Source: Gonocerus acuteangulatus
Taxonomy: Eukaryota > Arthropoda > Insecta > Hemiptera > Coreidae
Assembly: GCA_946811695.1 (NCBI GenBank)
Contig: OX328123.1
Coordinates: forward strand, 38,970,054 to 39,034,053
Length of the DNA stretch: 64,000 nucleotides
Direction of reading: 5' to 3'
A program made the translations under genes and the position numbers. The notes under the pieces were generated by a model. It was not told the DNA's origin, ran no database searches, and saw nothing but the letters and a program-made list of their open reading frames with translations. Shown in pieces: positions 41,270 to 61,331 of the stretch. Each line of letters begins with the position of its first letter. The stretch's first letter is position 1.

Positions 41270-44200
41270 TTGAACTAAATCATTGAGATCAATGAGTTCT
41301 GAAACGAGAAATTTTATAGTCAGCACTTCCGGATTGCTTCTTGAGGTCAACCTCATAAGCGGGTTTCATCCCTATGGAGAAAGGGAGAAACCATACTAAA
41401 ATCAAAGTTTATACATTCAAGAATTTATGGGAAGAAATCAAATATAATGTATTAAACTTTAGTTCCTATGCCTACTGATTGATAAGTACTCTGTGTGGAA
41501 AGCAACCCAATATAGTTAAGCAACTTTTTTTTTCAAAAATAACGTTTTTCTCTCTCTGCCAAAAGAAGAAGCAGTATTTGAATGGATGACAATGTGAATG
41601 AAGGTTTTGTGAGACTGATATCAGCTTCGCCATGTCAATCTATTTGTATCACAATATTTGCATTTACCTATAATTTTGTTGCCTTTCTGGACTTCTACAA
41701 AATGTAGAACGTCCACACATTTGTTATTTTATGGTTAACCATTATTCCTGACAGAGAGCAGTATTTTTTTTTTTTTTTTTTTTTAATTCCAATCTAGTGT
41801 TGTTTAAATGAGGCGAATTTTCTTAAAATTGTCGCAGCTTGTATAGAGTTGTGGAACTGGTTTCCGCTACAACCTTGTTTATCAAATATTAAGAGAATTG
41901 AGTGATTATATTGACTTTTTTATGAATTATTACATAATAAAGATGACAATTGTTAGGTAAAACATAATCACATTTAATTTTATTCATGTGAATTAAAAAG
42001 TTGAATTATAACCTGTACTTTTTGTTTAAATGGTTCAGAAATTAGCTAATATAAGAAAATATGGATTGCTCATATATGTCCTAAAAAATTTTACCAAAAA
42101 ATAGCCTTTTGTAAATGGAAAATTTTCCGGAAAAACAGCTGAAAATTTTCTACCCCACATCTCTAGCCAGATGTACTACAAAGGTTACAAGGGCTAAATG
42201 TACCAACAAAAATATTGTCATACCCATTTTTACAAAGACAGAGGCTTTGTCATGAGTCTTAAGGATAAAAACTACATGACAGTGAATGCAACTAAGGATC
42301 TCTCTCCTAACACCGAAGATGAGGAGATACTAATGAAAGGGTTTAGGAGTTACTGAATATATTTATTTCTAACTTTCCAGCCCTTCCATGATAATAGTTA
42401 ATATATAGTGTATCTGTTCTTACTATATGAAGGGGTACACTACCAGGTGGAGAGTTAATTTTAGTGCATCTTTAGCAACCAATAAGCACAATTTGTACTC
42501 ACACATTGAATAGATATGTAACTGTTTCCTGTAGTATTTCTGGTGTTCTGATGTCTAAATGTGATTCCTCTCTCATTCCGGCCGCAGATCTTGTAAACTC
42601 TTTTACTGGTTTTAATCCATATCCATTTTCAAGTTTATGAATAAGTCCTTTTTGGGTTCTCCTATTAAGGGAAAAATAATTGAGATTTATTTTAAAATTT
42701 AATATTCATTTTCATTACTTATAAGCAAATTTCACTGACCCACTTCTTTTATGATTTATTAGCCTAACCTAAATGTATGTAAACCATAGGGTTAGAATAA
42801 AATTTATTTATTTAAATTTTAACTTCCATTTGAGTTAATATAATTAACTCAAAATTTTAGGACAGGTTATCTATAGGTCACCACTCTTTTTTAGCCAGGT
42901 TAGGGCTGATGCCTTTTCTTTTTTCGAAAGAAAAGCCACCACCCTTAGTGGGAATCGAACCCACGACCCTTAGCACGAAGTATTAAGTGCTCACGCCTTA
43001 ACACTTATGGCCACCGGGCCTCCAGTGATTAAAATGAAAATAAGACACTTCTGTAGTTACATAAGTTTTAAAACAAGTCCATTCTGAAATCAGCCAGATT
43101 CTTTACAATATTGAAGAGGAATGATCAACTGCTTTGGATGAGTTGGACAAATCTTGGATCAATCTATGCTCAGGACATTAAACACTCCATTCTAACAGAT
43201 AAAATAAACAGGTAATAAATGTGGAACAGCGAAGGGCAATGTCATATTTCTCATCAACTTTTTCGACCTATCATTCATAAACAGCTGCAAACCTGGCACA
43301 AATACCATCAGTCAGTTAAGGAGATTTCATAGCTTTCCAATTGCATTGTAAAATAATAACAAAGGTTCTACAATTGAAGCATCTAGCCGAATAGAGGTAT
43401 ATATTACATATAGTGAATGGTAATTGTGAAGTTTAGGGGCCTCATCAATAATTTTTAAATTTTGCACTATAACGTATTTTGATGCACTAAACATGAACCT
43501 GTTAGAAAAAAAAATTGCTCTCAACCAGGAAAAAAGTTATTAAGCACTGAAGTTCACTGTTATGCAGGTTAGGAAAGCAAGGGTAAACAAAGATAGTTGT
43601 AAACATGCGCATGCACATGGATGAAAATTGGGAAATAAAGAACTATCCTTTGAAATTTTGATAAATTATTTATTGAAAAATAAATATAACATGAACGAAC
43701 ATTGTAGACAATTTTACAAATTAATGAAAAAATTATTTTATAAATACAGCTGCACAACTTTTTAGTACTAACTTACAAAAAATAAGAAGAAATAGTAAAC
43801 TTTTTTGTTGACAATAATCTAATAAAGAGGCCCTTAAACTTTCAAATTTTGCAATATAACACATTTTGATGCACTAAACACGAATCCGCTATGGGCATAC
43901 ATGCTATGTGTTTCTGCTCGCTCAAGAAGATATCTAAACTCTAGTCAATCCAACTTTTAGCAAGTTTGAAACAGTAACATTATTTCTAGTTGAGAGCGAG
44001 GTTTTTTAACAGATCAATGTTTAATGCATCAAAATTAAAAAAAAAAATTAAATTAAAATTGGCAAGAAAGCCCCTAACCTTAACAATTACCACTCCCTAT
44101 TTAGGTAGATGCTTTAATTGTCTTGATCAGGACAAGGAACCATCCACCTGCAATCTTGAACAGGATGGTTGAATATATCGCACATCAAGTCATTATCCTT

Positions 44201-47200
44201 CTCAGCCCCGATTCCCAGATATTTCAAAATTAGTTACTTCCACAATAACATAAGCACAGCAGTTTCCAGTTGAGAGAGGCACTTGCCAGGTGCAACAGAG
44301 TAACCCAAAAATTAATCATTTAAAGAAATAACAGATAGGAATTTTCTTTTGTAATGAAAAATAATAGCTAAGGTTCAAAAAGTGCTCTTAAAGAGCTCAG
44401 CACTTGACATTAAACATACCCTTCACTGTAGCAACTAACAAGTTTTCACTATTCTAAATATACAGCTAATAAATCATACATGTTACAAATATTAAATGAA
44501 AAATATAATGTGCCACAATTTTCATTGAATTCTCAGACAGTGGGGAAAAAGACACTTCTGTTCGGATTTAAGAGTTGTAACGTCCAGAAATTTGAAGTCC
44601 AAATGCTTAATTTTAGCAAGGAAATTATCATGTTGAAGAGTAAAATATCAAATTTTATTTTTCCTTATTTGTTCTAAATATAAATCATCTAGATTCTAAA
44701 ACTAGTCTTGATAAAATCTGCGAAACTCATCTGATGATATTGAAGTCCACCCATTACCATTCCGCATGTACACCTGATAACATCAACAGGATGTATATGT
44801 GGAACGGCAAAGGGAAGTGCAACCTCTAACAAAACATTCTCGAACCAGTGATTTCAGTTAGACTGAAAACATATCTTGAGTATAGTTGGTTTCTTTGAAG
44901 ATTCTACAACTGGTCTTGATAAAGTCTGCAAAACACAGGTGATGATATTGATGTCCACCCATTACCATTCCACATGTACACCTGATAACATCAACAGGAT
45001 GTATATGTGGAACGGCAAAGGGAAGTGCAACCTTTCACATAAACATTCTCAAACGGTGATTTCATGTAGACAGCAAACATATCTTGAGTATAGTTGGTTT
45101 CTTATAAGATTCTACAACTGGTCTTGATAAAGTCTGCGAAACACAGGTGATGATATTGATGTCCACCCATTACCATTCCACATGTACACCTGATAAAATC
45201 AACAGGATGTATATGTGGAACGGCAAAGGGAAGAGCAAACTTTCACATAAACATCCTCGAACCAGTGATTTCAGGTAGACAGAAAACATATCTTGAGTAT
45301 AGTTGGTTTCTTTTAAGATTTGAGAACTGGCCTTGATAAAGTCAGCGAAACACAGGTGATGATATTGATGTCCACCCATTACCATTCCACATGTACACCT
45401 GATAAAATCAACAGGATGTATATGTGGAACGGCAAAGGGAAGTGCAACCTCTAACAAAACATTCTCGAACCAGTGATTTCAGTTAGACTGAAAACATATC
45501 TTGAGTATAGTTGGTTTCTTTGAAGATTCTACAACTGGCCTTGATAAGTCAGCGAAACACAGGTGATGATATTGATGTCCACCCATTACCATTCCACATG
45601 TACACCTGATAACATCAACAGGATGTATATGTGGAACGGCAAAGGGAAGTGCAACCTTTCACATAAACATTCTCAAACGGTGATTTCATGTAGACAGCAA
45701 ACATATCTTGAGTATAGTTGGTTTCTTATAAGATTCTACAACTGGTCTTGATAAAGTCTGCGAAACACAGGTGATGATATTGATGTCCACCCATTACCAT
45801 TCCACATGTACACCTGATAAAATCAACAGGATGTATATGTGGAACGGCAAAGGGAAGAGCAAACTTTCACATAAACATCCTCGAACCAGTGATTTCAGGT
45901 AGACAGAAAACATATCTTGAGTATAGTTGGTTTCTTTTAAGATTTGAGAACTGGCCTTGATAAAGTCAGCGAAACACAGGTGATGATATTGATGTCCACC
46001 CATTACCATTCCACATGTACACCTGATAAAATCAACAGGATGTATATGTGGAACGGCAAAGGGAAGTGCAACCTCTAACAAAACATTCTCGAACCAGTGA
46101 TTTCAGTTAGACTGAAAACATATCTTGAGTATAGTTGGTTTCTTTTAAGATTTGAGAACTGGCCTTGATAAGTCAGCGAAACACAGGTGATGATATTGAT
46201 GTCCACCCATTACCATTCCACATGTACACCTGATAACATCAACAGGATGTATATGTGGAACGGCAAAGGGAAGTGCAACCTTTCACATAAACATTCTCAA
46301 ACGGTGATTTCATGTAGACAGAAAACATATCTTGAGTATAGTTGGTTTCTTATAAGATTCTACAACTGGTCTTGATAAAGTCTGCAAAACTCAGGTGATG
46401 ATATTGATGTCCACCCATTACCATTCCGCATGTACACCTGATAACATCAACAGGTTGTATATGTGGAACGGCAAAGGGAAGTGCAACCTCTAACAAAACA
46501 TTCTCGAACCAGTGATTTCAGTTAGACTGAAAACATATCTTGAGTATAATTGGTTTCTTTTAAGATTCTACAACTGGTCTTGATAAAGTCAGCAAAACAC
46601 AGGTGATGATATTGATGTCCACCCATTACCATTCCACATGTACACCTGATAACATCAACAGGATGTATATGTGGAACGGCAAAGGGAAGTGCAACCTTTC
46701 ACATAAACATTCTCAAACGGTGATTTCATGTAGACAGAAAACATATCTTGAGTATAGTTGGTTTCTTATAAGATTCTACATCTGGTCTTGATAAAGTCTG
46801 CGAAACACAGGTGATGATATTGATGTCCACCCATTACCATTCCACATGTACACCTGATAAAATCAACAGGATGTATATGTGGAACGGCAAAGGGAAGTGC
46901 AACCTCTAACAAAACATTCTCGAACCAGTGATTTCAGTTAGACTGAAAACATATCTTGAGTATAGTTGGTTTCTTATAAGATTCTACAACTGGTCTTGAT
47001 AAAGTCTGCGAAACACAGGTGATGATATTGATGTCCACCCATTACCATTCCACATGTACACCTGATAACATCAACAGGATGTATATGTGGAACGGCAAAG
47101 GGAAGTGCAACTTTTCACATTAACCTTTCTCGAACCAGTGATTCAGGTAGACTGAAAACATATCTTGAGTATAGTTGGTTTCTTATAAGATTCTACAACT

Positions 47201-48491
47201 GGTCTTGATAAAGTCAGCAAAACACAGGTGATTATATTGATGGCCACCCATTACCATTCCGCATGTACACCTGATAACATCAACAGGATGTATATGTGGA
47301 ACGGCAAAGGGAAGTGCAACCCTTCACTTAAACATTTTCAGGTAGACTGAAAACATATCTTGAGTATAGTTGTTTTCTTTTGACACTTCCCTTCTTCTTC
47401 TGACAGAGTGAGAGCCTCATCAGCTCTCTCTGTTCAGTGTTTCCGAGATGATGTAGTTCTCCTTTGACTTAAGTACAATTGGTTTCAGTTGATGTTGGGA
47501 CTAGCTAGGCGAATTAAGAGTCGAAGGAAATTTTATCATTTATTTATAGGATTTTAAGGCTTCCCTCTACGAAAGGAAAAAAGTCCGTCACGCAGGAGCT
47601 GCATAACTAAGCACTTTCCTCAGAATTTGGGTAGTGTAGACTGCTTTCCAGAACAATTTGCTTAAAATATCCTACATAAATAAAATAAAAACATGAATAG
47701 ATCTCTTTTAATTTTGTAATGAGTAACTGATCAATTATTAATTTGCTTCCAGAGTTATGTTTACACATGGTACCTACTACACTACGTAATAAATACAAAA
47801 AAACCTCATATTATCGTATTTTGATCTAATGCAGGAACAGGATATAGTCCCTCTAGTGGTAGAAAGCGCTCCTTGCGGCGGCTTTGTGAACCTACGTCTG
47901 GCGGGCTTTTCTATTGAAATATATTACAAAGTAAACCCCCCCCCCTTTCCGATTAACCGATTCAGCTCATTTTTACAACACTTCTTTCTCATGAGTTACC
48001 CACAACGTATACCACGTTTCGTTACAGTACAGCAGAAATTACGACCGGTATGAGTATATTAGTAATTTGGGTCCGGAGTAAACCCCCCCTCCTAATGAAC
48101 CGATTTAGTTTATTTTTACAACACATATTTACCTGTGGATTACCACTACGAATACCGAGTTTCGTCGAAATATACCAAAAATCACGGCTGGTAGTGGCGA
48201 ATTGGTATTGTGGGTCCGGAGTAAACCCCCCCTCCTAATGAACCGATTTAGTTCATTTTTATGTCTCACTTTTCTCTTTATAGTACCACTACGAATGCCA
48301 AGTTTCGTTGAAATATAACAAATATTACGGCTGACATGGTCAAATTAGGGTTTTGGGTTCGGGGTAAACCCCCCCTTCAGGTGGACCGACTTTGGTGGTT
48401 AACGAACTCGTTCAATCGTTTGCTAATTGAATGCTATATACCAAGTTTTGTGACGAAAAAACAAAAACTCTGGCCGCTATCGTGTTAACAG

Positions 48492-48527
<36 letters not shown>

Positions 48528-51500
48528 TGTTATGATTAATTTTTATAAAATGATTGCGCCACGTTGGGTCGCCATTTAATGTTAAGATTTTATTATTTTA
48601 AAAAGAAATAAAAAGATTTTAATTACTTGAGTAAGTTTTATTATATGAATTTGACTTAATCTCAGGGATTAAAGTTCCGAGTGAATGAACAATATAATAT
48701 TTATTTCCAGACAATCCTGAGATACAAACACCAATATCAAAAATAATACAAATGACAATAAAAGAATTAACAATTACAAAAAAAACAAAACAATTTTTAC
48801 CTCTAAATCAATCCGCTTCCAACAAAGCCTCAATACACTGCGCTTCAGCAATTTCTTCCTCAAGGAGACACGCTCTCTTGCCAGTTCTCGCGCATAGAAT
48901 GGGTATCTTGAAAGTCTGGATTCTTTTGTCTTCTCACTCCGCCTTCTATGATAATTAATAATGGACTGCGCTCTGTATTCCTCGGAGGATCGCTATGGAC
49001 TCTAGCTCCTCACTTTACGAATGCTGGGAATCAACTGACGATCCGCATTCCAGGGCTGCTGGGAATCAACTGACGCCTTCTAGCAGGAAAGCTTGGCATC
49101 CTTGTTTCTTAACTTCCGCATTTTGTGGGTTCATATATAAAAGTAATAATTATATTTTTCGTAACTTCAAATAATTAATTTATTGTTATCTGAATGTAAA
49201 TTTAATATGGATATATTGTATACCAGTATTGTCCAAAAATATTATTAATTTTGATCGTATATAATACGATGTTAATTGTATATATGGTTTGTGATTTGCG
49301 CAGGCTTTTCAAAATATTGATGGTTATTTGAATTTAAAAATATTTTCGTGAATGTAATATATCATTACAATATATATATATAAATTTTAACGGGGGTCAT
49401 TTTCGGTGTCTACTAGGTAGGATCGATAAAGATTTGAAGAAATGTTTCAAAAATTCCGTCATGTTTCCAACCTCAATAGCTACTTTCTTCGGAGGAAAGT
49501 GCTAAAATCAACAAGATAGGAAAACTCAAAATTTGTTATTAAAAACTGGCCTCAACCATTCCACATGAACACTTATGACAAAATGAAGGACTGTAAATGT
49601 GGAATGGCAAACAGAGGTTTAACTGCTCTCGAGATAAGTATATTAGGTTTCACTAAATATGTATTTGATATTGAGTTACTAAAACTTATCATTTAAGGCA
49701 GTAAAGAAATGGAGTATATTTTAATACTTCTTTTCTCTTATAACAAAAAATTACAAAGATTCAAAAAATACTCTCGACATGCACAGGAAATACAAGCTTT
49801 AGTTAACACCTCATTCAACATTCCACACATGATCAGATCAGAAAATATCAGATTATAATGGATAAGAGATGCCATGTGGTACAGCAAAGAGAGTCCAACA
49901 GATCTTTATGGATCAATGTTCTTTTGTTTAATAATTGTCTAACCCCACACATATAGTAAAACGAGAAAATTTTATTAATATGTACACATATATTTACAAT
50001 TATATAATAGACACAAGGACTGAACATTTTAGGGTAAACGTAAGGTTGACCATTTTATGGCACCCCTTAATGCATAAGGAAATAGTTCCAATGAATAATA
50101 CAACATGAGAAGCCAGATTCTTAAGAGTAGATGTAAAGACTCTGCTAGAAGGATAAAAAATACAAATTTTATGAATTTTCTTTTGATGGGTCGGAAAATC
50201 ACTATTGTTGTTCAACTCCTCCTAAAAAGATCAGCTAAACACTAATACAAGGGTGTCTCCTACTTTTGTGAAAGGCAATTTCGGGACTTTTTAATGATTT
50301 GAAAAGCTAATTTCATTGGTCATTAAAAAGAAAATAATTTCAAACAAAATGAAAAAGCCTTAATATTGGCTTGAAATTGGCCCTGTTAATAGAATTTCAA
50401 TATTTAAGTCTGCACATATTTAAAAAATGAATAATTGATTTGTAAATGCATACAAAAAGGGTGACAATTACAAATGCGCCTAAGTACCAGGATTACGTTA
50501 CACTCCGGTAAGAACTGAAATTTCGTGACTTGGTTTCAAAATTCATGACTTTTTTGTGATTTTGGTGCCCTATTTTCAATTTCGTGACATTTTCATGACT
50601 TTTTTGTGCAGTAGACTCCCTGTAATAGTAACATCCATTATAAAATGAAGAGGCTGTAAGAGGAACAGCACAGGGATTTTTAACTCCTCCTGACCAATGG
50701 TTTCCAGGAATGCAGAAAACTTAAACTGATGCTTAACTTCTTATAATAAGTTCATCAGAACAGCTTATGTTGTTGAACACCGCTCTCCACTGTTCCACAG
50801 TAACAGCTGATAAACTAAACAGGCTGTAAATGTGGAACGGCAAAGGGAAGTGCAATGTTTCTCTTGAACTCTTCGTGGATTGAATTTCCAGAATACTGTA
50901 AATAAATTTGATATATTACAATATAATGCATTCATAAGAATAGCGCATGTTGTTGAACACCACTCTCCACTGTTCCACATCAACAGCTGATAAAGTAAAC
51001 AGGTGTAAATGTGGAACGGCAAAGGGTAGTGCAATGTTTCTCTTGAAATCTTTGTGTATTGAATTTCCAGAAAACTGTAAATAAATTTGATGTAGGTATT
51101 ACAATATAATGCATTCATGGGAATAACTCATGTTGAACACCGCCCTCCACTATTCCACATCTACAGCTGATAAAGTAAACAGGCTGTAAATGTGGAACGG
51201 CAGCGGGAATGACATTTCTCAATTTCTATTATTCATTAGATCCTTTAGACTTACTGCGAAATTTACCAATTGAATATGTTATAACATAGGATTTTATGGT
51301 GTACATTTTCATAAGTGAAAGATTCATCAAGTTCCAACTTATAATGCGCTCATCAGATCACAGCTTGACAATAAACACTGCCCTCCACTATTCCGCATCA
51401 ACAGCTGAAATGTAACCAGGTGTAAATGTGGAACGGCAGAGGGAAATGTGAAGTTTCTCATCAGGTCTAGGTGCCCTCTTTTCCCAGAAAACTAAAATGA

Positions 51501-51542
51501 GGTACTTCTGCTGTGGTAAGTGTAGTAGATTCCAGTCTGTTG

Positions 51543-51596
<54 letters not shown>

Positions 51597-51725
51597 ACTA
51601 AACTAAATGATTCATAATTTCCCAACAACTTTTTAAATATGGTATGGCAATGTTTCTTATCAGCTTTCTGTGCACTGAATTCACTGGCAACTGGAAATCA
51701 AATATCCAGATGTTGATGTGCCATA

Positions 51726-51768
<43 letters not shown>

Positions 51769-54700
51769 GAGTTGCTAGATGCTTAACACTTTTGCCGCGG
51801 CAGCTGTAAAAGTGCATCCTCTTCAGTTACAAGCCTTTTAAATCTAATGGGAAAAGTAATGGAGGAGTGCCCTTCCGAAGGGACACTTGTAAGCAGGTAG
51901 GATCGGTAGTGTCCTTCTGGAAGGACACCCGCAGCGAAAGTGTTAAGAGTAGCTGTATAATTTATTAAGTCGAAGGATATATAAGATTTGTTAAACAAAT
52001 TTTCTCAATAGTAGGACATACCAGGTGCTTAAGCCTACCTGGAAAATTGACACTGGAATGCAATAAAATATAGAAATAAATGGCAATACCCAATTATGTA
52101 AAATGTTTGTTAAGGTATAATAACTTTTCATATCATGTTCATCAGAACTATCAACACTTAACACTGTCCCCCACTATTCCACATCAACAGCTGATAAAGT
52201 AAACAGATGTAAATGTGGAACGGCAGAGAGCAACGTTTTTCATCACCTCGTCAAGCTCTAAATACCCAGATAACTTCTTATCTGACGTAAGTGTAGTAAG
52301 GTTAAGTACCCAGTGGGAATAGCAAAATACTTAAGTACAGCTGTAAAATTAATCACTTGTGGAACCGCACTGGAAAATATTAGGGTTTTCACCAGCTGGT
52401 GGACTGTTGGTTCCAAGACAGTAGAAAACAGATAATTCTGCTGTACTAAAAGTATATCATATTTCAGTCAAATAAAGGACTTACAACTCATCATGTATTA
52501 ATCAGATCACAGCTAGAGACATTTAACACCACCCCCCACTATTCCACATCAACAGCTGATAAAGTAAACAGGCTGTAAATGTGGAACGGCAGAGGGAAGT
52601 GCAATGATTCTCTTTAACTCTTTGTTCTCTAAATTTACAGAAAACTGAAAATAAATGTTATGTATTTCAATTTAATGTATTCACGGGAGTAGCTCATGCT
52701 GAACACCACTCTCCACTGTTCCACAGCAACAGCTGATAAAGTAAACAGGCTGTAAATGTGGAACGGCAGAGGGAAGTGCAATGATTCTCTTTAACTCTTT
52801 GTTCTCTAAATTTACAGAAAACTGAAAATAAATGTTATGTATTTCAATTTAATGTATTCACGGGAGTAGCTCATGCTGAACACCACTCTCCACTGTTCCA
52901 CAGCAACAGCTGATAAAGTAAACAGGCTGTAAATGTGGAACGGCAGAGGGAAGTGCAATGATTCTCTTGAACTCTTTGTTCTCTAAATTTACAGAAAACT
53001 GAAAATAAATGTTATGTATTTCAATTTAATGTATTTACGGGAGTAGCTCATGTTGCTGAACACCGCTCTCCACTGTTCCACAGCAACAGCTGATAAAGTA
53101 AACGGGCTGTAAATGTGGAATGGCAGAGGGAAGTGCAATGGTGTCTTGAACGTTTTAAGCTTTGAGTTTCCGGAAAACTAAATAAATTTTATGTATTTCA
53201 ATTTAATGTATTCACAGAGGTAGCTCATGTTGAACACCACTCTCCACTGTTCCACATCTACAGCTGATAAAGTAAACAGGCTGTAAATGTGGAACGGCAG
53301 AGGGAAGTGCAATGTTTCTTTTGAACTTTTTGTGCTCTAAATTTACAGAAAAGTGTAAATACATCTTTTTGATTTCCGTTGTCCTTTTATTAAATGAAAA
53401 AGATTTATTAAGATTCATCTAATCATAATGTTTTGATCAGATCACAACTCAAGACATTAAACACCGCCCCCCGCTATTCCACATCAACAGCTGGTAAAGT
53501 AAACAGGTGTAAATGTGGAACGGCAAAGGGAAGTGCAATGTTTCTATTGAACTCTTTCAGCTCTAAATTTACTGAGCCTTTCTGCATCTCAACAGATTGC
53601 CTTTAAAAGTTGTTTTGGTGTATCTGTATAATTCATCACTTCAAAAAATCTATATATATAAAAATCACGTGTTCTGTCTGTTTTTCTGTTTGTTTGTTCC
53701 TTATACAAATCCACATCGTTTGACTGATATTGACCAAACTTCGCACATAGATACGTCTTGATCCGGGAAATCTCGTAGTCTAGCTCAAAATCTTCTAGGA
53801 TTCACAGTTCGGGAGTTACGCCTTCGAAAATGTCATTTATGAAGGAGTAAATTCTCCGAAATAGCCATTTTCTTCCAGTGTTGCAACTTTTTCAAAGAAG
53901 AACGGCAATATAGATGGAAATTAGCAAGCCAACAAAACTCATTTTTTTTTTAAGTTTTACTTTCTTTTTGTTTTACTTTTTTTAAGTTATACTTATTTTT
54001 AAAGTTTTATTTTAACTTCTTTTAAAGTTTTACCTATTCTCAAAATAGCCTTATATTCTCAGAATTTGGAGAAAAATCATATTTCTGTTTAAGAAGTATA
54101 TATCAAGTAAGGCAACACTGGGCTCCTAGATGTTATTCAGTTTTGCGACAGAATTAAGCTTGCAAATACATTTAAACGGTTTAAGTTTTAAAAAAATCGT
54201 TTTTGAAACATTTCGTTAAAACTTTGTTTTAAAACATTTCAGTTTAAACCTTTGTTTGTTTAATTACAAATTACAATTTAAATTACATTACGTTTGCAAT
54301 CGTGTGTATCAAACTTTTTTAACTTTGAACATTTTTTGTCTACCTTTTAGCCTTTTAAGTCTATCTTAAAGTAATAAAAAGTAAATATATCGTATAACAT
54401 AAATTTATTTCTGTAGGACAACACTGGGCTTAGAAGCCATTTTTCTTTTGCTATAAAACATTTACATTTTAAGCTTGAACATTTTTTCTTTTTTTAGCCT
54501 TAGTGTTTATATCTAACATTCATACATCTAACTTTTTAAGTTTCATGAAACTTTTTTAAGTGTCTGCAAACTTTTTAAGTTTTCAAACGTGCGTTAATCA
54601 AACTTCATAAAGTTTGCAAAAGTGTCTGTATCAAACTTTTTTAAGTTTGGTGTTTTCATTTATCTTATAACCATGTACGTCAAGTAAGTAGAACTATAAG

Positions 54701-57700
54701 TTTAACTTCCATTCCCTTTGTTTACTATTTTTGTTACTATGCTATTTTATTGCTTATTAAAAACTATGCCTTTAATAATTAATTTATGCCTCCGTTTTAT
54801 CACATGCATTTGCTTAGTAAAAGCTTGCAAATACATTTAAACGGTTTATGTTTTTAACAAATCTTTTTCGAAACATTTCGTTAAAACTGTGTTTTAAAAC
54901 ATTTCAGTTTTAACCTTTGTTTGTCTATTTTCATCTTTTAGTTATACCATACATGGTGTTAATATAGAATATAGAAGTGTTTAATTGCTTGGAAAATTAA
55001 CCAATAAGAGAATTAAAATTATGAGATGTGACAATGGTAAGGAATATTTAAATAGTATGATTTATGCTATTACAAAGAATAAGAGTATCTAAATTTATCC
55101 ATGCCCTCATATATTCACAAATTAAAGAGAACAGCTGACCAATTTTTTAGAACAATTATGAATATATGTCATTGTTTACTGGCAGAATCTATTGTTGTAA
55201 AAAAGTTTTGGCCTAAAATTGTTTGTGGAGCAACTTATTTGAAAAATCGCACTTTAGCTAAAACCATTGAGAATAAAACATCCTGTAAAATATATTTGGA
55301 AAGAAACCAGATGTTTCTAAGTTACGTTTATATGGTAGTAAAGTTGTTCTTAAGAAACCAGAACAAATAACGACTTTTATATAGGGGTAAGAATGTGAAT
55401 ATTTGCATTTTAATCCGTTATAGTGAAGCTCGGGAGTACTTTTGAATAATAAAATCATAGTCACTATGCATGTTGATGATGATGATTAGTTAATAGTTAG
55501 GTTAGTGGGAACTGATGAAAAATTTTAATGAAGAAAAGGAACTGGACTTGATTAATTTTTAGATGAAAGCCTTGGATAAATACAAATGTATAGTTTTAAA
55601 CAAAATAATACTTGGGATTTAGTTGAAAATAAGAAAGTTGTAAATGCAAAATGTTGGACATAGAGACTGCATTCTTAAATGGTGAAATCAATTCGGAAGT
55701 GTATATTTGAGGAGATTGGTATCAAAGTTGGACAACTCCATTTTTTTTCAATTGAAAAAAATGGAGTTGTCTAACATTTGAGTCAAATGAATATATTGGA
55801 GACATGCTTACAAACTCATTGTGTAAAGAAACATTTAAGAAATTCAGAAATATGTTAAATTTGATATTTTATATTTCATATATTGTTCATACTTCCTGCC
55901 TTAGGGAGGAACATTTTTGTCGGTTATACAATTTATAATGTAAAGTGATGTACATCTTGCTGTTTGTGTGTGTAATAAATGAATATGAACTTGACATGCT
56001 TTTATGAATCTCCCACACTTTTAAATAATTTCTTATCTCAACAATTTTAATTATAAAAAGGCACATTTAATTTTAAAAAATATGGTAGTAATACCCATTA
56101 TGAATAACTTCCAGAAGGAATCAATTACATTCTCTTCTAGATTTGTACCAAAAATATTTACTTTATCATCATAAATTATTCCTCCAAGCCCTCAATCTTA
56201 GAACCTTTAAAAAAATATGTTCCATTAAGGAGAAGGCAGCAACCATGGAGTTTTATATCATTTTTATTGTTTCATAACGTTTTGTCCATCGCAAGCCTTA
56301 CTTAATTTCACTTTTAATATTTAAATTTATATCATTTTAATTTGCTGTCATGGAATTGTCTTTAAACCATTTCCTTCTTATTAAAATGAATTCTTTCATT
56401 TATCCCCCCCCCCCAGGTGAATTGAATTTTCCATGCAATTTTCTATTAATCTAAATATGCCAAGCCTCTTTATTATTGACATATTTACACCCAGCAGTTT
56501 TATTATATTTTTATATCTGCTTTCTTTTGTCTGAGATATTTATATCCTCTGACTACTCCATTATTTAAATACGCTTGCAATTTGAGCACAATATTGTTGC
56601 AAAATCAAAAAAAAAAAAAAAAAAAGGCCACGAGGACCCTAAGTGGCAGATACTATAGATGAATCTGATTCATGACTGTACAGCACACTAGGGAGATAGT
56701 GTGGTCAGTACAATGCTCCGGCCGCCTGATTTTCCCCTAGGCTGCTTCGACACCTCAAGCCATTAGCACCCAGGGTATCCATTGGTAAATTTATTAAAGG
56801 CTGGGTTGACCTAGGGACTGCCAGTGAGGCCAAATTCAACCCAAGAATGAAGACATTAGAAGAAAAAATCTTTATTGTTTGCTCGAGATTCGATCTCAGG
56901 TGCTCCAGTTTATTAGTCCAGTGCTCTACCACTGAGCTAACCTCGACCCCTCGCCAAATCAAATTAACCCCCCATTAATTTATTTAGTATAAGTCCTTAT
57001 TGAAATTCCCAAATAGCTTTAATTCATTGTTGTCTATAGCTGCAACAAAAATATCTAAATTTGTTTTTCTTAGATAGCCCTATTTCCTATGACAAAAGGG
57101 CTATCCTTAAAGAAGAGCTCATAAACCTTAAGATTTGAAAGAGAAGCTTTAATATAACGGAAAATGTAAACAACAAAATGAGAAAGTTTATTTGGAACAA
57201 AAAGTTTTTAATACTTTCCTTTTGGCTCAATTAACATAAATCCTGCATCAATTACTTTTTCAATCATAGAAAGAAAAACCTTAGTTACAGATTATTACAT
57301 GAAAAGGTATAGAATATAACATATTAATATTATATTTAAAAAAACAAAAACAGTACAAATAAAGAATAGTTTCAGTTATACTAGATTAAAACTTATAACT
57401 AAGTAAGTATAACCTTAATTAAATGCTTCATTTTGTTGCTATTTTTTAATATGTATTTATATATGGACCACACATTATTTTCTTTAAAAAATTATACACA
57501 GGTAGTTTGGTTAGGATTTTCTTTAAAGTGGTACTACAATTACATGATTCCAGTATACTTTTTAAAATAAGGGTTAATTTATTTTCCACCCCACATTCAG
57601 TGAAAATTTGAAAAATAATTTTTTTAACTGAGCTCTCAACTTATAAACTTACTTTCTCATAATTTGAACAAGTGTCATATAATCATTCATTTTAATATAT

Positions 57701-60700
57701 AATATAAAGTAGGAGTACCATGACATGCTGGGTAACAGGTATTTAATATGAAACATGTGTAGCATGCCAAACCCGGTAACACCTATTTAATATAAAGTAG
57801 GTAACAGGATAAGGCACACCGGGTAACAGCTAGTAAATTATAAAATGTTGTAAAGTTTCTTCCAAGGTTACCAGAGTATAAGTACAATGCTTTATGACTA
57901 CCTTATGTAATTTTATACAAAACATTAAGTTTATGAGTAAGCTTTAAGTGACATTTAATGTAAAATGAAACTACCAAAAATCCATACAAAATACAGAAGT
58001 CAACAACAAATTGGATATTGCTTTATGGTTAAATAAAAAAAGTCTTAAATTAAATAATTCAAGTATTTATGGATTTATTCATCAATAACTAATAAAGCAA
58101 AACTATAAAAATATAAGAATGATCTACCAAAAAAGCACTGATAATGAAAGACATAAGTTATTTCCATCAAAATTTACAAGAAATAGGCTAATAACAATAA
58201 GTCCTATAAGTAATTAACCACTCAAAATATCTTATGTAATACATAAAGAATTAAAAACATACCTTATTAGCAGTGGGAGTCTTAATGAGCAGTCTCTAAA
58301 CGACGTAACACATGAAGAGTGGGGAGCAGATGGATGCAGAGTAGGGTACCTGGGAATAGCATAGGACCATTCTAGCTGTGCAGTTTTAGGTTTCCCAGAC
58401 AAAGACAAGCTCTAGATGTCCCAGTCTATTTTTTACATCCTAAGTACTACTAGTGCTCCTGGCATCTAGCGGGAATGTTTTAAACTATTCCGGCAACACT
58501 GGTGCTAAATTGAAAATTTCCTAAACTAAAGCCACTCAATCGGTGATTGCCCGCTAAAGGATTAAATACAGTAAGTGTAATGTATGGGCGATTTCCATAA
58601 TAAACTGAAGATTCAACTACTTCCTAGAATGTGTTTATCAGATCACAGCTCATGACATTAAACACCGCCCTCCACTATTCCACATCTACAGCTGATAAAA
58701 TAAACAGACTGTATATGTGGAACAGCAGAAAGAAGTATTTCTTTTCTTGTGAATTTTCTGTGCTCTGAATTTTCAGACAATTTAAAATGAAATTCTTCTT
58801 TCTCTCGCTTAGAAAAGCCTAATTTATCATTTCAAGGCAGCAGGAAATCAGGCAACGTAAGTATAACGGACTCCAGCCAAGTCAGATAAGCAAGGTGCTT
58901 AAGCGAGTAGAGGATAAATTATCATTTAAAGATATAAAATATAGATAATTCTTATGATAAAGAATCACCAGTTTGATAACAGCTATTAACCCTTTCCATA
59001 CGCAAAGAGTCGCAAGGAGTGTGTTCTGCTGTACGGGATACTCGCACTTGGCTTCGGACCCCCTGTACGGGATACTTTTCCCACTCTTGGTCTCAGCACC
59101 TCGACTTTCAGAGATCTCCTCGCTGTAGTAAAACTCGTATTTTATCATTTCGATTTTTATTTTGGTTACAATGATTATTAATTTTTATTTATGTTAAATT
59201 AGTTTGGTGTTTCAATAATATTTTTTAAGTTGAATAACTTTGTTTAAAAATAAGTTATATTATATAGACATAAAAAAAGAAGGTTTTTCTGTTCATCATT
59301 TGCTCTTTATTTTATGAATAATAAGCAAGGGAATAATATACTCCATAACTACGGCAAAAAGTTTCCCATCTTCCTTTTTGATCCGTGACTTTGTACACTT
59401 GCGGAGCTAAAAACTTATTTTATTTTTTGTATAAAACATATTTACAAAAACAAAAGGATTATTATAAATATTTACAGTACACTTAATGAATTATTCAATT
59501 AAATACGTAATATATTAATCTTATCAATTGAATATTACATTTATTTTTAAATGGAGGACACGCAATAAAAAAACGTTTTTTTTCTAAATTTAACAGAACT
59601 AAATATAAGATCTTAACACTTCAAGACTGAAAGTGAACTAATTTTGCGAAAACAAGTTGTTGGGAATATACAGAGGTGTAAAAACAAACTATAATTTGAA
59701 GAAGGTTGACCGGGTAAATGGGTGGAGAAGGCAACGAGTTCTAATTCGACTGAAAACGACCAAAAACTTCATTCAAATGCCATCTAGTAATAGACAGGAA
59801 TATTAGAAGTACAATACGGTAACGCTAGATACCTCTAAAGTCGAGAAATGAGAAGATAAAGAATGCGAGAGATAAGCCGAGCTCTCGACTGCTGTACAAA
59901 GGAAAGGGTTAATGAGTTCTTCAAATTGGAGGCTATTCCACATTTAAACCTGATACTGGGAGAAAGCTGGAATAAACTATATGTGTAAAACAACTCAAGG
60001 AAGTGCCATGTTATTCGAAAATTATATATTTGAAGAACCGGGTGAAGCTCTATTTGTAAATAATAAAATCAAAACGACTAGCAATTAAAATGTAATTGAG
60101 ATGTAAAGCCTCTGTTACTTTTAGAGAAAAATTATTAGTCATTACAGATTCTAAAAATTCTGAGAAAGTGTAATGTATTATTTCATTGTGACTTCTATAG
60201 ATTCCTCAGGGATAAGACATTGATCTCTGGCATGCATTTAATGAAGCTGAGAGCTCTCCTTATTCTCGCTAGGTCCTGCTGAGTTTATACGTGCAAATAG
60301 CACAAGGCCGGAGAAGCAAAATACGGGCCACGAGTTAATTCGTGTGGAGTGTCAAGGATACCAACAGTAGAACACGAGTTATCTCGTGTGGAGCGTCTGG
60401 GCCCTGCAAGTCGAACACGAGTTAACTCATTCAGAGCAACAATAGGATTAAGGTTAAATCAGATTAAAATTAAATAAGATCAGCGGATAAAATATATCAT
60501 GAGCATATTGCAATTGTCAAAACCCTTAAGGCAGGGTTCTTTCTAATCAACTTTCTTTCTCCTGTGTTGGTGAAAAACATTGCTTTACACAACTTCACTG
60601 TTCCACCACCTGATAAAAACAACAGGTAGTAAATAAATATGGTATGGGAAAGAGCTGTGCTGTTTATACCCGGACTGCTAAAAATCAAGAACTCTTGCTC

Positions 60701-61331
60701 TGACTGAATGTATTAGCTTCCAGTCATTGATGGGACCTACCAAGCATATTTTAGTAAATGGATTATTCGCCATTTGAAGAGATTAAAAATAAATAATTTA
60801 CGCCAAAAGAACTGAGCTAGGAAATCCATGTTAGAAACCATAGGATGGAGTGTAAGAAAAATCATAGTTGCGATAAAGTAACTTTTTTTTTAGCTCTCAT
60901 AGTTTTAAGGAATGACATAGAATGTTTATTTTATCAGTCCTTAACTCTAATAGTCACTATATCGTCCCTACCATGTCAAACTATTGAATATGCAAATCGG
61001 AGCAAACTAGAGAACGAACATATTCTATCCAATTTATATTAGTAATATTTTGAAAAATGTTCTTCTTTGATACTTCATTTAAGGCTATTCTAAAGGGGTT
61101 AGTTGTGACAGTTTACGACAAGCCTTATGGTCCACAATCCAAGCATCTCGAATCTGAAAAAAGAGATTTTGCATATTCGATAGTTTGACATGGTAGGGAC
61201 GATGACGATATAAGGGTATGCTTATTGTCTGGATATTTATCCTCGTTACTGTTTAGTCTGGAGTATACTTACATTCTGACCTCCGCTTCAGGGCACATGT
61301 CCTGACACAGTCCAATGACAGATTCAGCCAT
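24037..61331 (-). CDS. SAC3D1: SAC3/GANP-domain protein (SAC3D1-like), 7 exons, 330 aa
   Basis: Spliced - strand CDS: 61331-61273, 42661-42503, 30437-30282, 28485-28294, 26438-26298, 24563-24374, 24132-24037 (TAA 24039-24037). Every junction is GT-AG and every phase closes, giving 331 codons with stop. The N-terminus has CQDMCPEAEVRMRTQ, matching the CPE-x-E-x-R opening of the SAC3/GANP domain. Residues 53-63 read VKEFTRSAAGM, as in SAC3D1. Exon 3 has YDFLANRFRAVQQDLFKQQ, equivalent to the family's YDF-x-RLRA-x-RQDM-x-Q signature. Exons 4-5 have LDIEAMYVLYALG and YRLSWFLGNFVAVCLLIEQL, the family's Y-x-LG and GN-x-x-x-F helices. Exons 6-7 match the C-terminal segment with its CRFYG and GIVFQRSGF. 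Length is close to vertebrate SAC3D1. Known: SAC3-family proteins act in mRNA export (TREX-2), and SAC3D1 is linked to centrosomes and spindle. Introns 1 (18.6 kb) and 2 (12.1 kb) are transposon-rich, and intron 1 carries the hairpin cluster. The exon 4 donor (AAA|GTATAT) was chosen by phase; a stronger-looking GTGAGC 43 nt upstream breaks the frame. A candidate AATAAA lies at 23722-23717. Confidence 0.88.
24821..24965 (+). pseudogene. Short coding-like segment, unrecognised
   Basis: After TTATTATCCAG an open frame reads RGTIPKETAACLKETGISEE then QLGVIAESILVDSLAIIQNH to GYMAEDF and TAA. Amphipathic and protein-like, but antisense to the host gene in its intron 5 and without a start. Could be the last exon of a decayed transposon gene. 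Confidence 0.35.
25490..25803 (-). pseudogene. Relic of a dispersed arthropod transposon-associated protein
   Basis: On the - strand: FEEIMTDTEKQEWIGFKIAI, QFLVNYKHIVESWAEI, then FLHSHLDVFPQNLGYIS, then a KEIERHYEGKCYINM-like piece. I recognise the pattern F-x-x-N-x-K...HFLHSHLDFFPENLGAVSDEHGERFHQDI from a repeated family common in arthropod genomes. Its transposon class is not clear to me. Several stops. It lies in intron 5 of the SAC3D1-like gene. Confidence 0.6.
26806..27173 (-). mobile_element. SINE family A, interrupted near its head
   Basis: Tail and body occupy 26806 to about 26992 (GGACAGGCTATCTGTAGGTT, AAAGAAAAGCCACCGCCCAT). The head resumes at about 27158 (CAGCCACCGGGCCTCC). About 165 bp with a long (AT)n tract separates them and looks like a later insertion or microsatellite growth. 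Confidence 0.72.
27361..27548 (-). mobile_element. tRNA-Glu-like SINE sharing the 5S SINE tail
   Basis: On the - strand the head reads GGGGTCTCCCAGGGGTCTAA, with a box-B-like GGTTCGAGTCCC, then a middle body. The tail AAGGGTGGTAAGCAATAGAT and GTGCTAAAGATGGTGCGCCA ends in A-rich DNA. GAAGCAATT flanks it (27352-27360, 27549-27557). Length (188 bp) equals the 5S SINE at 7777. It lies in intron 4 of the SAC3D1-like gene. Confidence 0.82.
28690..29220. other. GC-rich stretch in SAC3D1-like intron 3
   Basis: About 530 bp with much higher GC than its surroundings and many short palindromes (GGCACGGTCATGAGTGCC; GATCCCCCGAGGAATG with CATTCC-like inverse nearby). It contains TTAACACTTTCGGGCC at 28787, like a piggyBac-type end. 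Likely a transposon 5' UTR or MITE; no coding sequence recognised. Confidence 0.4.
30700..30838 (+). pseudogene. MADF DNA-binding domain fragment
   Basis: KSATVDKELLIELVRNEPYM then WDQQNKSYCHQDVKIDLI: the first two helices of a MADF (Myb/SANT-like) domain. It is cut at 30839 by the ACAGGGTGTCCC repeat and preceded by a C run (30690-30709). MADF proteins are encoded by PIF/Harbinger transposons and by host regulators. Relic in intron 2 of the SAC3D1-like gene. Confidence 0.65.
30839..31376 (-). repeat. Inverted copy of the GGGACACCCTGTA-ended repeat
   Basis: Begins ACAGGGTGTCCCAAATAAGA and ends AAACAATCCGGAAGT. It matches the reverse complement of about 36910-37451 over its length, including the hairpin CCTCCCTCCCTTCATAGGGAGG. 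It truncates a MADF coding fragment on its left. Confidence 0.8.
31457..32405. repeat. Partial palindrome built from the transposase relic
   Basis: 31457-31580 (TAAGCTAAATCAGATCATTC onward) is repeated in inverse at 32290-32405. 31785-31890 is repeated in inverse at about 32160-32290. Inverted copies joined in the middle, probably from nested insertion or a fold-back rearrangement. Confidence 0.75.
31560..32165 (+). pseudogene. IS630/Tc1-mariner-like DDE transposase relic (DUF4817-type N-terminus)
   Basis: Pieces in order on +: MKFTSCEIVDMIIFFGECRR (about 31585, N-terminal helix-turn-helix region), ISVQDIARETRISRRNVHRT (31812-31871), SKYHPYHISLHQDL (31887-31928), then VLFSDEATFVSD (about 32010-32045, catalytic D and E region) and HYWSMNNPHWIRQLDHQHRW, VNVWCGILG (to 32160). 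Stops and frame changes break it. 32160-32405 is an inverted copy of earlier parts, so the locus is a partial palindrome. Confidence 0.8.
32833..32895 (-). mobile_element. Short poly(A)-tailed retroinsertion
   Basis: The - strand has CTGCCAATGACCCAGCAGGG, then GTAGAGGCAGTATAATAAAA and a poly(A) run. ACTAAGTTTTAA flanks it at 32821-32832 and 32896-32907. It is the truncated 3' end of a SINE or LINE I cannot assign. Confidence 0.7.
32890..34098 (+). repeat. Tandem partial copies of the ATTGACATCGCC repeat
   Basis: Units starting near 32900, 33430 and 33790 share TTTTAAGCACTTATTTCTC, GATTGACATCRCC, TTTGTAGAGAATTTAGTAAG, CTTTCGAAT and GAGATATTAATGAAAATAT. Related single copies occur at about 3600-3990 and 39370-39700. 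These are the left part of the second (AT)n-core repeat type. 32404-32520 just upstream holds three GTGGGCTTCTGTAGAAGCCA-type palindromic units. Confidence 0.72.
34099..35747 (-). mobile_element. Penelope-like element, truncated, with inverted terminal repeats
   Basis: Long inverted repeats of about 370 bp (34134-34518 and 35360-35747) begin GAAGACAAGG and include GCCAATGTGCAGCCGAAACG on one side and its inverse on the other. They surround a - strand coding fragment with a GIY-YIG endonuclease. AAACCAAAAACG at both borders is the likely target duplication. Inverted pLTR-like ends are known in Penelope-like elements. Confidence 0.82.
34793..35342 (-). pseudogene. Penelope-like C-terminal region with GIY-YIG endonuclease
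   Basis: The first part (35342-35121) reads SLTYTPGLTEKLTKTLKKA to KLTTLYTKLKDP. After a frameshift of one base near 35122 it continues CTIHCVYQIPC and NAVYIGETKNYIHSRITQHK (the VYxI...YIG motif with the family's zinc-like cysteines between). It then has HKSALAKHAITKKHTFNF, followed by a tail to a stop near 34793. The reverse transcriptase part is absent. The family identification is firm; the copy is broken by the frameshift and truncation. Confidence 0.85.
35760..37451 (+). repeat. (AT)n-core repeat ending in GGGACACCCTGTA, split by an LTR
   Basis: The left part ends GAAATCCGTGAACAGACAAA then (AT)n. The right part 36845-37451 has TTCTGAAACGTGAAATTTTC and CACTTCCGGATTGTTTCATG, ending TTATTTGGGACACCCTGTAT. 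30839-31376 is an inverted copy of the right part. Confidence 0.75.
36116..36814 (+). mobile_element. Probable solo LTR, related to 48528, inside an (AT)n tract
   Basis: Starts near AGTTATAACATAAATTAAAA and ends TAAAGTATCATTACA, flanked by ATATAT on both sides. Shares the ATCATTACA end and an AC-GCC-ACGTTAGG-GCCA block with the element at 48528. Confidence 0.6.
37702..38052 (-). mobile_element. tRNA-derived SINE family B with poly(T) 3' tail
   Basis: On the - strand a tRNA-like head (GGTTAGCTCAATGGTAGAGC as box A, GGTTCAAAACCCG as box B) begins at 38052. A body of about 260 bp follows and the 3' end is a run of T (A run at 37702-37721 on +). TTAAAACACCTAA(A) flanks it (37689-37701, 38053-38066). 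The relation of promoter to tail shows the element ends in T, not A. Confidence 0.82.
39370..41400 (+). repeat. (AT)n-core repeat, second type, split by an LTR
   Basis: The left part (TTATTTCTCCGATTGACATC onward, ending TACCAAATTTCATCAAATTG) runs to (AT)n at about 39966. The right part after 41276 has GAGTTCTGAAACGAGAAATT and CACTTCCGGATTGCTTC, matching 10106-10190 and 36890-36990. Confidence 0.7.
40025..41209 (+). mobile_element. Probable solo LTR or LTR-like insertion inside an (AT)n tract
   Basis: Starts TGTAATGATCTAAAAGGGGG, ends AAAACACCACA, flanked by ATATAT on both sides. A promoter-like TCTATAAAAAGGGCC lies at 40401. The higher-GC stretch 40230-40660 has a 140-codon frame rich in His, Ser and Pro (SSLPEHHP end), which I regard as LTR or leader sequence, not a gene. 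Confidence 0.55.
42803..43022 (-). mobile_element. SINE family A, full copy
   Basis: Reads (on -) GGAGGCCCGGTGGCCATAAG, then CGTGGGTTCGATTCCCACTA, then the GGTGGTGACCTATAGATAAC central block, ending TTTAAATAAATA. It lies in intron 1, just upstream (gene sense) of exon 2 of the SAC3D1-like gene. Confidence 0.82.
43181..43242 (-). ncRNA. Degenerate hairpin copy nearest exon 2
   Basis: The right arm AAATGTGGAACAGCGAAGGG is well preserved but the left arm reads CTCCATTCTAACAG and no longer forms the TTCCACAT stem. It marks the exon-2 side limit of the family in intron 1. Confidence 0.35.
44700..47390 (-). repeat. 13-unit tandem array, 208-bp period, one stem-loop per unit
   Basis: The landmark CCATTACCATTCC recurs at 44751, 44959, 45167, 45376, 45583, 45791, 46000, 46207, 46415, 46623, 46831, 47039 and 47248, so spacing is 207-209 bp. 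Three unit types differ in the segment after the hairpin: C (CTAACAAAACATTC), A (TTCTCAAACGGTG) and B (CATCCTCGAACCAG). Their order is C-A-B-C-A-B-C-A-C-A-C then two variants, so a 624-bp trimer was itself duplicated before dimers formed. Open frames seen within the units are by-products of the repeat and break in diverged copies. The array lies in intron 1 of the SAC3D1-like gene. Confidence 0.95.
44745..47322 (-). ncRNA. Thirteen pre-miRNA-like hairpins in the tandem array
   Basis: Each 208-bp unit holds a hairpin of about 75 nt. The apical stem pairs TTCCACATGTACA with TGTATATGTGGAA, followed by CCTG/CAGG with a one-base bulge and a loop of about 10 nt. A lower stem pairs CCACCCATTACCA with CGGCAAAGGGAAG. 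Read on the - strand I count about 27 of 30 stem positions paired (several G-U); on the + strand about 25. The - strand is the host gene's strand. The - strand 5' arm (core CTTTGCCGTTCCACAT) is the one most conserved with the dispersed copies. That arm conservation is typical of a mature microRNA. No expression evidence is available from sequence alone. Confidence 0.6.
47581..49510 (+). repeat. (AT)n-core repeat, copy split by an LTR
   Basis: The left part 47581-48527 matches 16571-17640 (first 120 bp almost base for base). The right part 49370-49510 matches 17700-17850 (AACGGGGGTCATTTTCGGTG). Between them is a TG...CA element inserted within the (AT)n tract. Confidence 0.8.
48528..49369 (+). 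mobile_element. Probable solo LTR inside an (AT)n tract
   Basis: Starts TGTTATGATTAATTTTTAT and ends ATATCATTACA, so TG...CA with an inverted TGTTATGAT/ATCATTACA-like terminus. Contains GCGCCACGTTGGGTCGCCA. Both flanks are ATATAT, the parts of one microsatellite. No internal retroviral domain was seen. Confidence 0.68.
49545..49618 (-). ncRNA. Diverged hairpin of the same family
   Basis: ACCATTCCACATGAACA faces TGTAAATGTGGAATGGC. Here both arms changed together: ACGG became ATGG on the right arm while the left arm has CCATT, keeping ATTCCACAT/ATGTGGAAT fully paired. The lower stem is weaker than in the main copies. A further decayed relative lies at about 49807-49895. Confidence 0.45.
50246..50625. 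mobile_element. ACAGGGTGTCTACTAC-ended MITE, short copy
   Basis: TACAAGGGTGTCTCCTACTT at the left, TTTTGTGCAGTAGACTCCCT at the right, with TTGTGAAAGGCAATTTC shared with the copy at 12231. It sits beside a broken hairpin-family remnant at 50632-50680 (GAGGCTGTAAGAGGAACAGC). Confidence 0.7.
50779..51450 (-). ncRNA. Four dispersed hairpins of the same family
   Basis: Stem-loops at 50779-50855, 50959-51034, 51139-51213 and 51377-51450. All have TTCCACA(T/G) then ACAGCTGATAAA or a close variant, a (G)CTGTAAATGTGGAACGGCA right arm and an upstream AACACCGC/CACTC segment that closes the base of the stem. Where the + strand left arm has GTTCC the closing pair is G-C, and where it has ATTCC it becomes G-U on the - strand but A-C on the + strand. 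That exchange keeps pairing only on the - strand. The copy at 51377 has a shortened loop (deletion in TGATAAAGTAAA). Confidence 0.6.
51547..51771. repeat. T52 and A36 homopolymer runs
   Basis: A pure T run at about 51547-51595 and a pure A run at about 51728-51763 face each other 130 bp apart in the hairpin cluster. Possibly tails of two opposite SINE or LINE insertions; no bodies recognised. Confidence 0.6.
51783..51946. mobile_element. piggyBac-like MITE, 164 bp
   Basis: TTAACACTTTTGCCGCGG at the left and CCGCAGCGAAAGTGTTAA at the right with TTAA at both ends. Internal palindrome GTGTCCTTCTGGAAGGACAC at 51909-51928. Confidence 0.75.
52161..53540 (-). ncRNA. Seven dispersed hairpins of the same family
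   Basis: Stem-loops at 52161-52233, 52527-52601, 52703-52783, 52881-52960, 53061-53140, 53234-53314 and 53460-53540. The one at 52527-52601 was paired base by base: arms 52527-52556 and 52572-52601, loop 15 nt. It gives 27 of 30 positions paired on the - strand (6 G-U) against 21 of 30 on the + strand. The copies at 52703, 52881, 53061 and 53234 are spaced about 180 bp and share flanks (GTATTCACGGGAGTAGCTCATG), so this part grew by tandem duplication with a different period from the 208-bp array. Confidence 0.62.
55018..55860 (+). pseudogene. Ty1/copia integrase and reverse transcriptase relic
   Basis: KIMRCDNGKEYLNSMIYAIT (integrase catalytic DNG-x-EY region) at about 55018; then, after frame changes, FFRTIMNICHCLLAESIVVK and FWPKIVCGATYLKNRTLAKT (55149-55270, end of the core domain); and MLDIETAFLNGEINSEVYI (about 55650-55706, RT domain start, D-x-x-TAFLNG). 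Stops between pieces show it is dead. Confidence 0.82.
56608..56951 (-). mobile_element. SINE family B with poly(T) tail, second copy
   Basis: Same layout as the copy at 37702: head GAGGTTAGCTCAGTGGTAGA at the right end, shared body segments (GTGTGGTCAGTACAATGCTC on +, GCTGCTTCGAC, TAGAAGAAAAAATCTTTA) and an A run at the left on +. CAAATCAAA-like sequence flanks both ends. Confidence 0.78.
57834..58640. other. Intron 1 stretch without recognised elements
   Basis: AT-rich to 58260. 58270-58560 is less AT-rich (GGAGCAGATGGATGCAGAG; CACTGGTGCTAAATTG) and ends ATTGCCCGCTAAAGGATTAA facing CATCTAGCGGGAATG, a weak inverted pair. No gene or hairpin copy seen. Confidence 0.35.
58661..58738 (-). ncRNA. 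Isolated hairpin of the same family
   Basis: TTCCACATCTACAG pairs with CTGTATATGTGGAA around the loop CTGATAAAATAAACAGA. The upstream flank (CAGATCACAGCTCATGACA) matches flanks of the 53.46- and 52.53-kb copies. It is 5 kb from the nearest other good copy, the gap being filled by a Helitron and copia relic. Confidence 0.55.
58986..59912. mobile_element. piggyBac-like non-autonomous element in SAC3D1-like intron 1
   Basis: TTAACCCTTTCCATACGC at the left and TACAAAGGAAAGGGTTAA at the right, both with TTAA. It separates hairpin copies at 58.66 and 59.93 kb. Confidence 0.72.
59927..60660 (-). ncRNA. Two decayed hairpin-family copies
   Basis: At 59927-60000 GGCTATTCCACATTTAAACCTGAT faces ATGTGTAAAACAACTCAAGG in part. 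At 60588-60660 CACTGTTCCACCACCTGATAAA faces CAGGTAGTAAAT and ATGGTATGGGAAAGAG. A piggyBac-like relic sits between them. Pairing is poor, so these are probably dead copies. Confidence 0.3.
60017..60445. mobile_element. Decayed copy of the 11069 piggyBac-like element (right half)
   Basis: Shares TTTGAAGAACCGGGTGAAGC, GTAAAGCCTCTGTTACTTT, GATAAGACATTGATCTCTGG and ACACGAGTTATCTCGTGTGG with 11680-12070. The right terminus has decayed from GGGTTAA to GGATTAAG. Confidence 0.65.
60957..61203. mobile_element. MITE with about 35-bp inverted ends next to SAC3D1-like exon 1
   Basis: Left TATATCGTCCCTACCATGTC then AAACTATTGAATATGCAAA; the right arm TTTGCATATTCGATAGTTTG then ACATGGTAGGGACGATGACG is its inverse. 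It lies 70 bp inside intron 1 from the exon 1 donor. Confidence 0.75.

Follow-up and report, generated by a model that had tools for sequence, protein, structure and literature searches.

We have analysed a stretch of the genome of the hemipteran Gonocerus acuteangulatus (contig OX328123.1, positions 38,970,054 to 39,034,053; hereafter the window, 64,000 nucleotides in all), in which a single intron of a gene of the SAC3/GANP family, read on the minus strand, holds a cluster of 26 intact and related hairpins. The part of the host gene that frames the cluster is as follows:

61273 to 61331, minus strand: coding exon of the SAC3/GANP-family host gene with the presumed ATG
42662 to 61272, minus strand: host intron with GT and AG ends, lying between two coding exons and containing all 26 intact hairpins
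42503 to 42661, minus strand: next coding exon, whose end (42503) we infer from a GTGAGT donor

When the two exons flanking this 18.6-kb intron are joined and translated, the resulting 73 residues match the Pfam domain SAC3_GANP with an E-value of 9.9e-14, and with four joined exon pieces the match reaches 2.2e-32; relatives in PDB are GANP and SAC3D1. Of 45 candidates, none matched the joined translation of the host gene at an E-value of 0.001. A preliminary description of this DNA had placed the hairpins within an intron of a SAC3D1-like gene, with minus as the host strand, and both the intron boundaries and the domain match agree with it. Upstream of the exon with the ATG there is also a 98-bp tandem repeat in 4 copies (61423-61822).

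The hairpins were delimited with a covariance model built on the minus strand from 17 distinct copies, with which the whole window was scanned with filters off. The 26 intact copies lie between 44737 and 58744 on the minus strand and score 58.6-107 bits (on the plus strand these places reach 23.8-47.3 bits, the model having been built on minus). All 26 share one orientation, and they are distributed as 13 in array A, 3 in array B, 5 in array C and 5 single copies, which we list together with the weaker matches:

44691 to 47336, minus strand: array A, a 208-bp unit repeated 12.7 times, with 13 intact hairpins
50751 to 51209, minus strand: array B, a 180-bp unit repeated 2.5 times, with 3 intact hairpins, the last reaching 51219
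52525 to 53361, minus strand: array C, a 177-bp unit repeated 4.7 times, with 5 intact hairpins, the first starting from 52519
49536 to 49626, minus strand: single diverged hairpin (58.6 bits; folding z-score -3.1 on minus and -3.9 on plus)
51368 to 51455, minus strand: single hairpin (80.2 bits)
52154 to 52242, minus strand: single hairpin (77.2 bits)
53454 to 53542, minus strand: single hairpin (94.7 bits)
58655 to 58744, minus strand: single hairpin (94.9 bits; z-score -7.6, the lowest of all copies)
43175 to 43243, minus strand: decayed copy (21 bits), its fold not significant (z-score 0.0), with BLAST identity of 75-79% over about 65 bp to other copies
60580 to 60666, minus strand: doubtful remnant (14.2 bits, E-value 0.15), with no BLAST support

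Below the 26 the next match on the minus strand is the decayed copy, followed by unrelated hairpins at 29025 and 55706. The motif ATGTGGAA occurs 46 times in the window, every time between 43219 and 59943, whereas 100 shuffles gave a mean of 2.98 and a largest count of 7. The hairpin cluster in the intron is a real observation. About 30 copies had been claimed, and while the cluster stands, the count is now 26 intact hairpins, to which one decayed copy (at 43.2 kb) and a small number of doubtful ones can be added; that most copies lie in tandem arrays is a point absent from the earlier account.

We folded 32 candidates on both strands and compared each with 200 dinucleotide shuffles. All 26 intact copies beat shuffled sequence on the minus strand, with z-scores of -3.1 to -7.6, and the six other candidates (at 43219, 49874, 50658, 52357, 59973 and 60640) gave -1.7 to +1.0. 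Folding energies favour the host strand, being lower on minus in 25 of the 26 copies (the exception is the copy at 53113), by a margin of only 0.4-0.5 kcal/mol in three of them. The predicted folds have 21-34 pairs per 92-nt piece on minus and a 10-nt loop in 23 of 26 cases. For the copy at 52527-52601, 27 pairs on minus and 21 on plus had been reported; the excess on minus holds, but RNAfold counts 29 pairs (6 of them G-U) on minus and 23 (2 of them G-U) on plus. The same intron also contains a different inverted repeat at 55724-55778, with 24-nt arms that are 92% complementary and z-scores of -6.7 on plus and -7.2 on minus, which could represent a further hairpin gene or else a small inverted-repeat element.

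The consensus stem has 32 pairs, and it was on this named structure that pairing was tested. Of its 540 cells 86.9% are paired, a value that none of 500 shuffles reached and that compares with 35-48% when the partners are slid. Two-sided change is present in 13 cells (again reached by 0 of 500 shuffles), and the clearest exchange is that of C-G for U-A at columns 17-75 in array A. We also placed the same substitutions at random in 400 mutants of each of two references, taking as diverged any copy with at least 11 substitutions, and found that eight of the nine diverged copies have folds that no more than 13 of the 400 random mutants equal, whichever reference is used.

The arrays provide a second kind of evidence, in that each hairpin can be compared with its own flanks. 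Only units wholly inside an array were used (11 of 13 in A, 2 of 3 in B and 4 of 5 in C), and columns were taken as independent. In array A variable columns number 2 of 45 in the arms and 28 of 131 in the flanks (p 0.005; 0.016 with substitutions only, gaps being uncounted), and in array C 4 of 45 and 29 of 100 (p 0.005; 0.018 on the same restricted count). A 78-nt window slid along the units is least variable at start columns 10-22 in array A, within 15 columns of the stem start at column 7, and at start columns 3-9, at the stem start, in array C. In arrays A and C, then, the hairpin arms are under constraint. The weighted entropy over the 17 distinct copies is 0.32 bits in the 5' arm, 0.36 in the 3' arm, 0.61 in the loop and 0.94 and 0.71 in the two basal parts. 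In these copies twelve columns of the 5' arm show no change at all (23-30 and 32-35), and the longest invariant run, which is in this arm too, reads TTCCACAT, followed by one variable base and one T, then TACA. The preliminary description had held the 5' arm to be nearly invariant and the loop and 3' arm to vary; the loop is indeed freer, but the 3' arm is almost as conserved as the 5' arm in the 17 copies, and the contrast between the arms appears when array A is compared with nine other copies, where identity is 0.75-0.92 in a 36-nt 5' segment and 0.61-0.71 in a 38-nt 3' segment.

In that comparison four 50-nt flank segments show identities of 0.48-0.70, with random 50-nt pairs at 0.51 (standard deviation 0.06). 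BLAST matches (E-value 1e-5) between array A units and the other copies cover 53-95 bp over the hairpin, apart from four longer matches (271-286 bp, 67-68%), each covering two hairpins. Similarity between a single copy and a member of array B or C, or another single copy, extends over as much as about 170 bp (73-88%), which points to tandem duplication rather than separate insertions. The comparison of copies suggests that tandem duplication amplified the family and that at least one of its copies is decaying.

Taken together, arms conserved in both sequence and pairing, a loop and flanks that vary more freely, and the single locus and orientation of the copies fit a microRNA precursor family under purifying selection. 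We consider that the most likely identity of the hairpins, and one we would put well ahead of even chances, is a lineage-specific microRNA family amplified in tandem within the intron; judged from sequence, it is probably a new family and cluster of a known kind and not a new kind of system. Microprocessor substrates are described, in the part of the source used here, as having a stem of about 35 bp, a basal UG, an apical UGUG and a CNNC motif (PMC6298569). What we find is a single imperfect hairpin close to this length in each intact copy, stabler than chance, with arms more conserved than the loop and flanks on the 17-copy entropy and in arrays A and C, array B being without such a difference. 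Among the 19 of 26 copies inspected, UGU or GUG lies near the loop in 16 and UG at -14, the stem base, in 15. In the mechanism we propose, the minus-strand precursor messenger RNA (pre-mRNA) of the SAC3/GANP-family gene would carry the 26 hairpins, transcribed together with their host. Cleavage by Drosha near the base of each hairpin and removal of the loop by Dicer would yield a duplex of some 22 nt, of which the 5' arm would serve as guide on Argonaute, starting near CCGUUCCACAU, give or take about 2 nt. The dose of this one guide may be raised by the large number of copies. The main differences between groups of copies (AUAUACAUCC versus AUUUACAGCC) lie outside the seed of the proposed guide, and the copies at 49597, 53113 and 58715 differ within it.

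Several results weigh against a microRNA family, or soften the evidence for it, and are best considered together. As to pairing, the pairs with two-sided change number 6, which 27 of 500 shuffles reached, and further pair types are in no excess (163 of 500). Five of the eight diverged copies that pass the random-mutant test come from array A, so that independent groups passing number four of five; the copy at 52213 fails it (40 and 82 of 400), as on minus do all seven of the less diverged copies, the nearest to passing being equalled by 28 of 400 mutants. On the plus strand seven of the nine diverged copies pass as well; this test speaks for structure and not for strand. The plus strand also folds better than its shuffles, with z-scores of -3.3 to -6.0 in 25 of the 26 copies (the copy at 52213 has -1.8), and in five copies the z-score is better on plus than on minus. 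G-U pairs outnumber A-C mismatches on minus by 92 to 30 among 544 cells of 17 copies, but by column the ratio is only 15 to 9 (p 0.31); we have rejected this asymmetry as proof of strand, and the strand preference therefore rests mainly on the energies and the direction of the host gene. Constraint on the arms is not seen in array B, of which two units could be used (3 of 45 variable columns in the arms, 8 of 77 in the flanks, p 0.37; 57 of 77 sliding windows are as low as the stem), and since the copies were first gathered through the ATGTGGAA motif, the conservation of that core in part reflects the way in which they were chosen. Of the processing signals, CNNC stands at the expected spacing of +16 to +18 in only 3 of 19 copies, the basal UG is missing from the single copies at 49597, 51426, 52213 and 58715, and its position is partly circular because the register was set by us to fit it. 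Finally, no Rfam 15 family reaches its gathering score within the intron. The microRNA mir-367 (RF00735) was considered and rejected as an assignment: six array A copies align over its full model at 35.1-40.5 bits (E-values down to 1.2e-5), short of the gathering score of 54. Of what had been claimed for a microRNA cluster, the hairpins, their intronic place, the lower energies on minus and the conserved arms stand; constraint on the arms does not extend visibly to array B, and the biogenesis set out above is what we infer.

The main rival, which we regard as unlikely, is a cluster of hairpin RNAs (hpRNAs), whose hairpins would be diced by Dicer-2 into endogenous small interfering RNAs (siRNAs) loaded on Ago2, as for hp-CG4068 of flies. 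Tandem copies of one conserved arm would also fit such a cluster, and there is a precedent in hp-CG4068 itself, which is reported to comprise 20 copies in tandem in D. melanogaster, and 9 in D. simulans, and to yield siRNAs that depend on Dcr-2 (PMC10317233), the CG4068 siRNAs working with Ago2 on mus308 (PMC10355832). The likeness to hp-CG4068, so far as the parts of these sources used here describe it, lies in the tandem arrangement; the stem here, with its 32-pair consensus, is short, retains conserved mismatches and G-U pairs, closes on a 10-nt loop and would seem more like a Drosha substrate. Moreover, the arms resemble nothing else in the window by BLAST, and the UGU and UG signals weakly suggest Drosha.

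Slightly less probable still is that the copies are a satellite or a short palindromic element without small-RNA function, in which the palindrome was kept by template-switch correction or by young age. The tandem arrays are what such an element would produce, and array B, with its two units, shows no constraint on the arms. Against it are the arms of arrays A and C, less variable than their flanks, the twelve invariant columns of the 5' arm, the single orientation of all 26 copies, and the persistence of mismatches and G-U pairs, which correction to a perfect palindrome would be expected to erase. The distribution in the genome bears on the same question. We searched 1.106 Gb in 135 contigs for the exact pattern TTCCACAT, 8-30 bases and ATGTGGAA, which 18 of the 26 local copies match and beyond whose reach diverged copies elsewhere would lie, a limit that itself leaves room for a satellite. 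The pattern was found in 41 places (9 for the reversed control), 18 in the host intron and 23 elsewhere. The 23 score at most 32.2 bits under the covariance model, compared with at least 58.6 here, and are unrelated hairpins, the best of them scoring alike on both strands, as any palindrome does; in the 10 kb flanking the window on each side no match exceeds 11.4 bits. The dispersed copies expected of a miniature inverted-repeat transposable element (MITE) were likewise absent by exact pattern, diverged copies elsewhere not having been searched for. A transposon terminus repeated genome-wide, which would have spoken against a microRNA cluster, was in this partial search not found. Several of the outside places (L005, L007, L021 and L027) carry a different 31-bp palindrome, with loop GGGTTACT or AGTAACCC, that by eye forms a separate small repeat family.

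A structural pre-mRNA element that acts in splicing or in RNA editing and yields no mature small RNA would account for intronic hairpins with conserved pairing and lower energy on the host strand, but it is very improbable given that sequence is conserved too and that the longest invariant run lies in one arm.

Elsewhere in the window we note a 5S ribosomal RNA-like match at 7858-7969 on the minus strand (50.1 bits, cutoff 38), the sole Rfam match at gathering score in the window, which may represent a pseudogene or a piece of a short interspersed nuclear element. Tandem repeats of 143 bp at 17053-17507 and 47955-48376 lie within longer repeats common to both (92.5% over 814 bp). A reverse transcriptase frame of a long interspersed nuclear element, of 695 codons, occupies 5055-7139 on the plus strand; its closest relatives are about 41-43% identical among the matches listed, and of 1122 matches the 120 considered are, where named, mostly from insects and other arthropods (30-45% identity), together with a Thiodiazotropha bin.

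Clusters of this general kind are known. Intron 10 of mouse Sfmbt2 contains 65 microRNA genes in head-to-tail units unique to that intron (PMC3212979), and the present cluster resembles it in its place within an intron of a coding gene, its head-to-tail repeat units and its tens of hairpins; unlike the mouse region, which is described in the part of that report used here as rich in B1 retroposons and CA/TG repeats, it gives no sign of a transposon origin. MicroRNA clusters of spiders and flies also arise by tandem duplication (PMC4987109, PMC3923130, PMC3763532); in the portions of those reports compared here no cluster has more than six members of any one family, against 26 in this intron. 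In titles and abstract openings of open-licence PubMed Central text we found no report of the present cluster; there, SAC3D1 with microRNA retrieved only papers unrelated by title, and the arm sequences occurred in one DNA form only, in papers with unrelated-looking titles.

Tandem hairpins in one intron, with their own flanks as control, offer a natural test of selection on a small-RNA precursor. Should small RNAs confirm the microRNA family, the cluster would exceed in size the arthropod examples with which it has been compared, in so far as those sources describe them, and it would raise the question of why 26 copies should serve one guide, whether for dose or in an arms race. We suggest, tentatively and as a possibility less likely than not, that this is a recently amplified clade-specific microRNA family with one guide and 26 live copies, whose growth was driven by genetic conflict or by selection for dose, the former by analogy with the fly hpRNAs that silence selfish genes.

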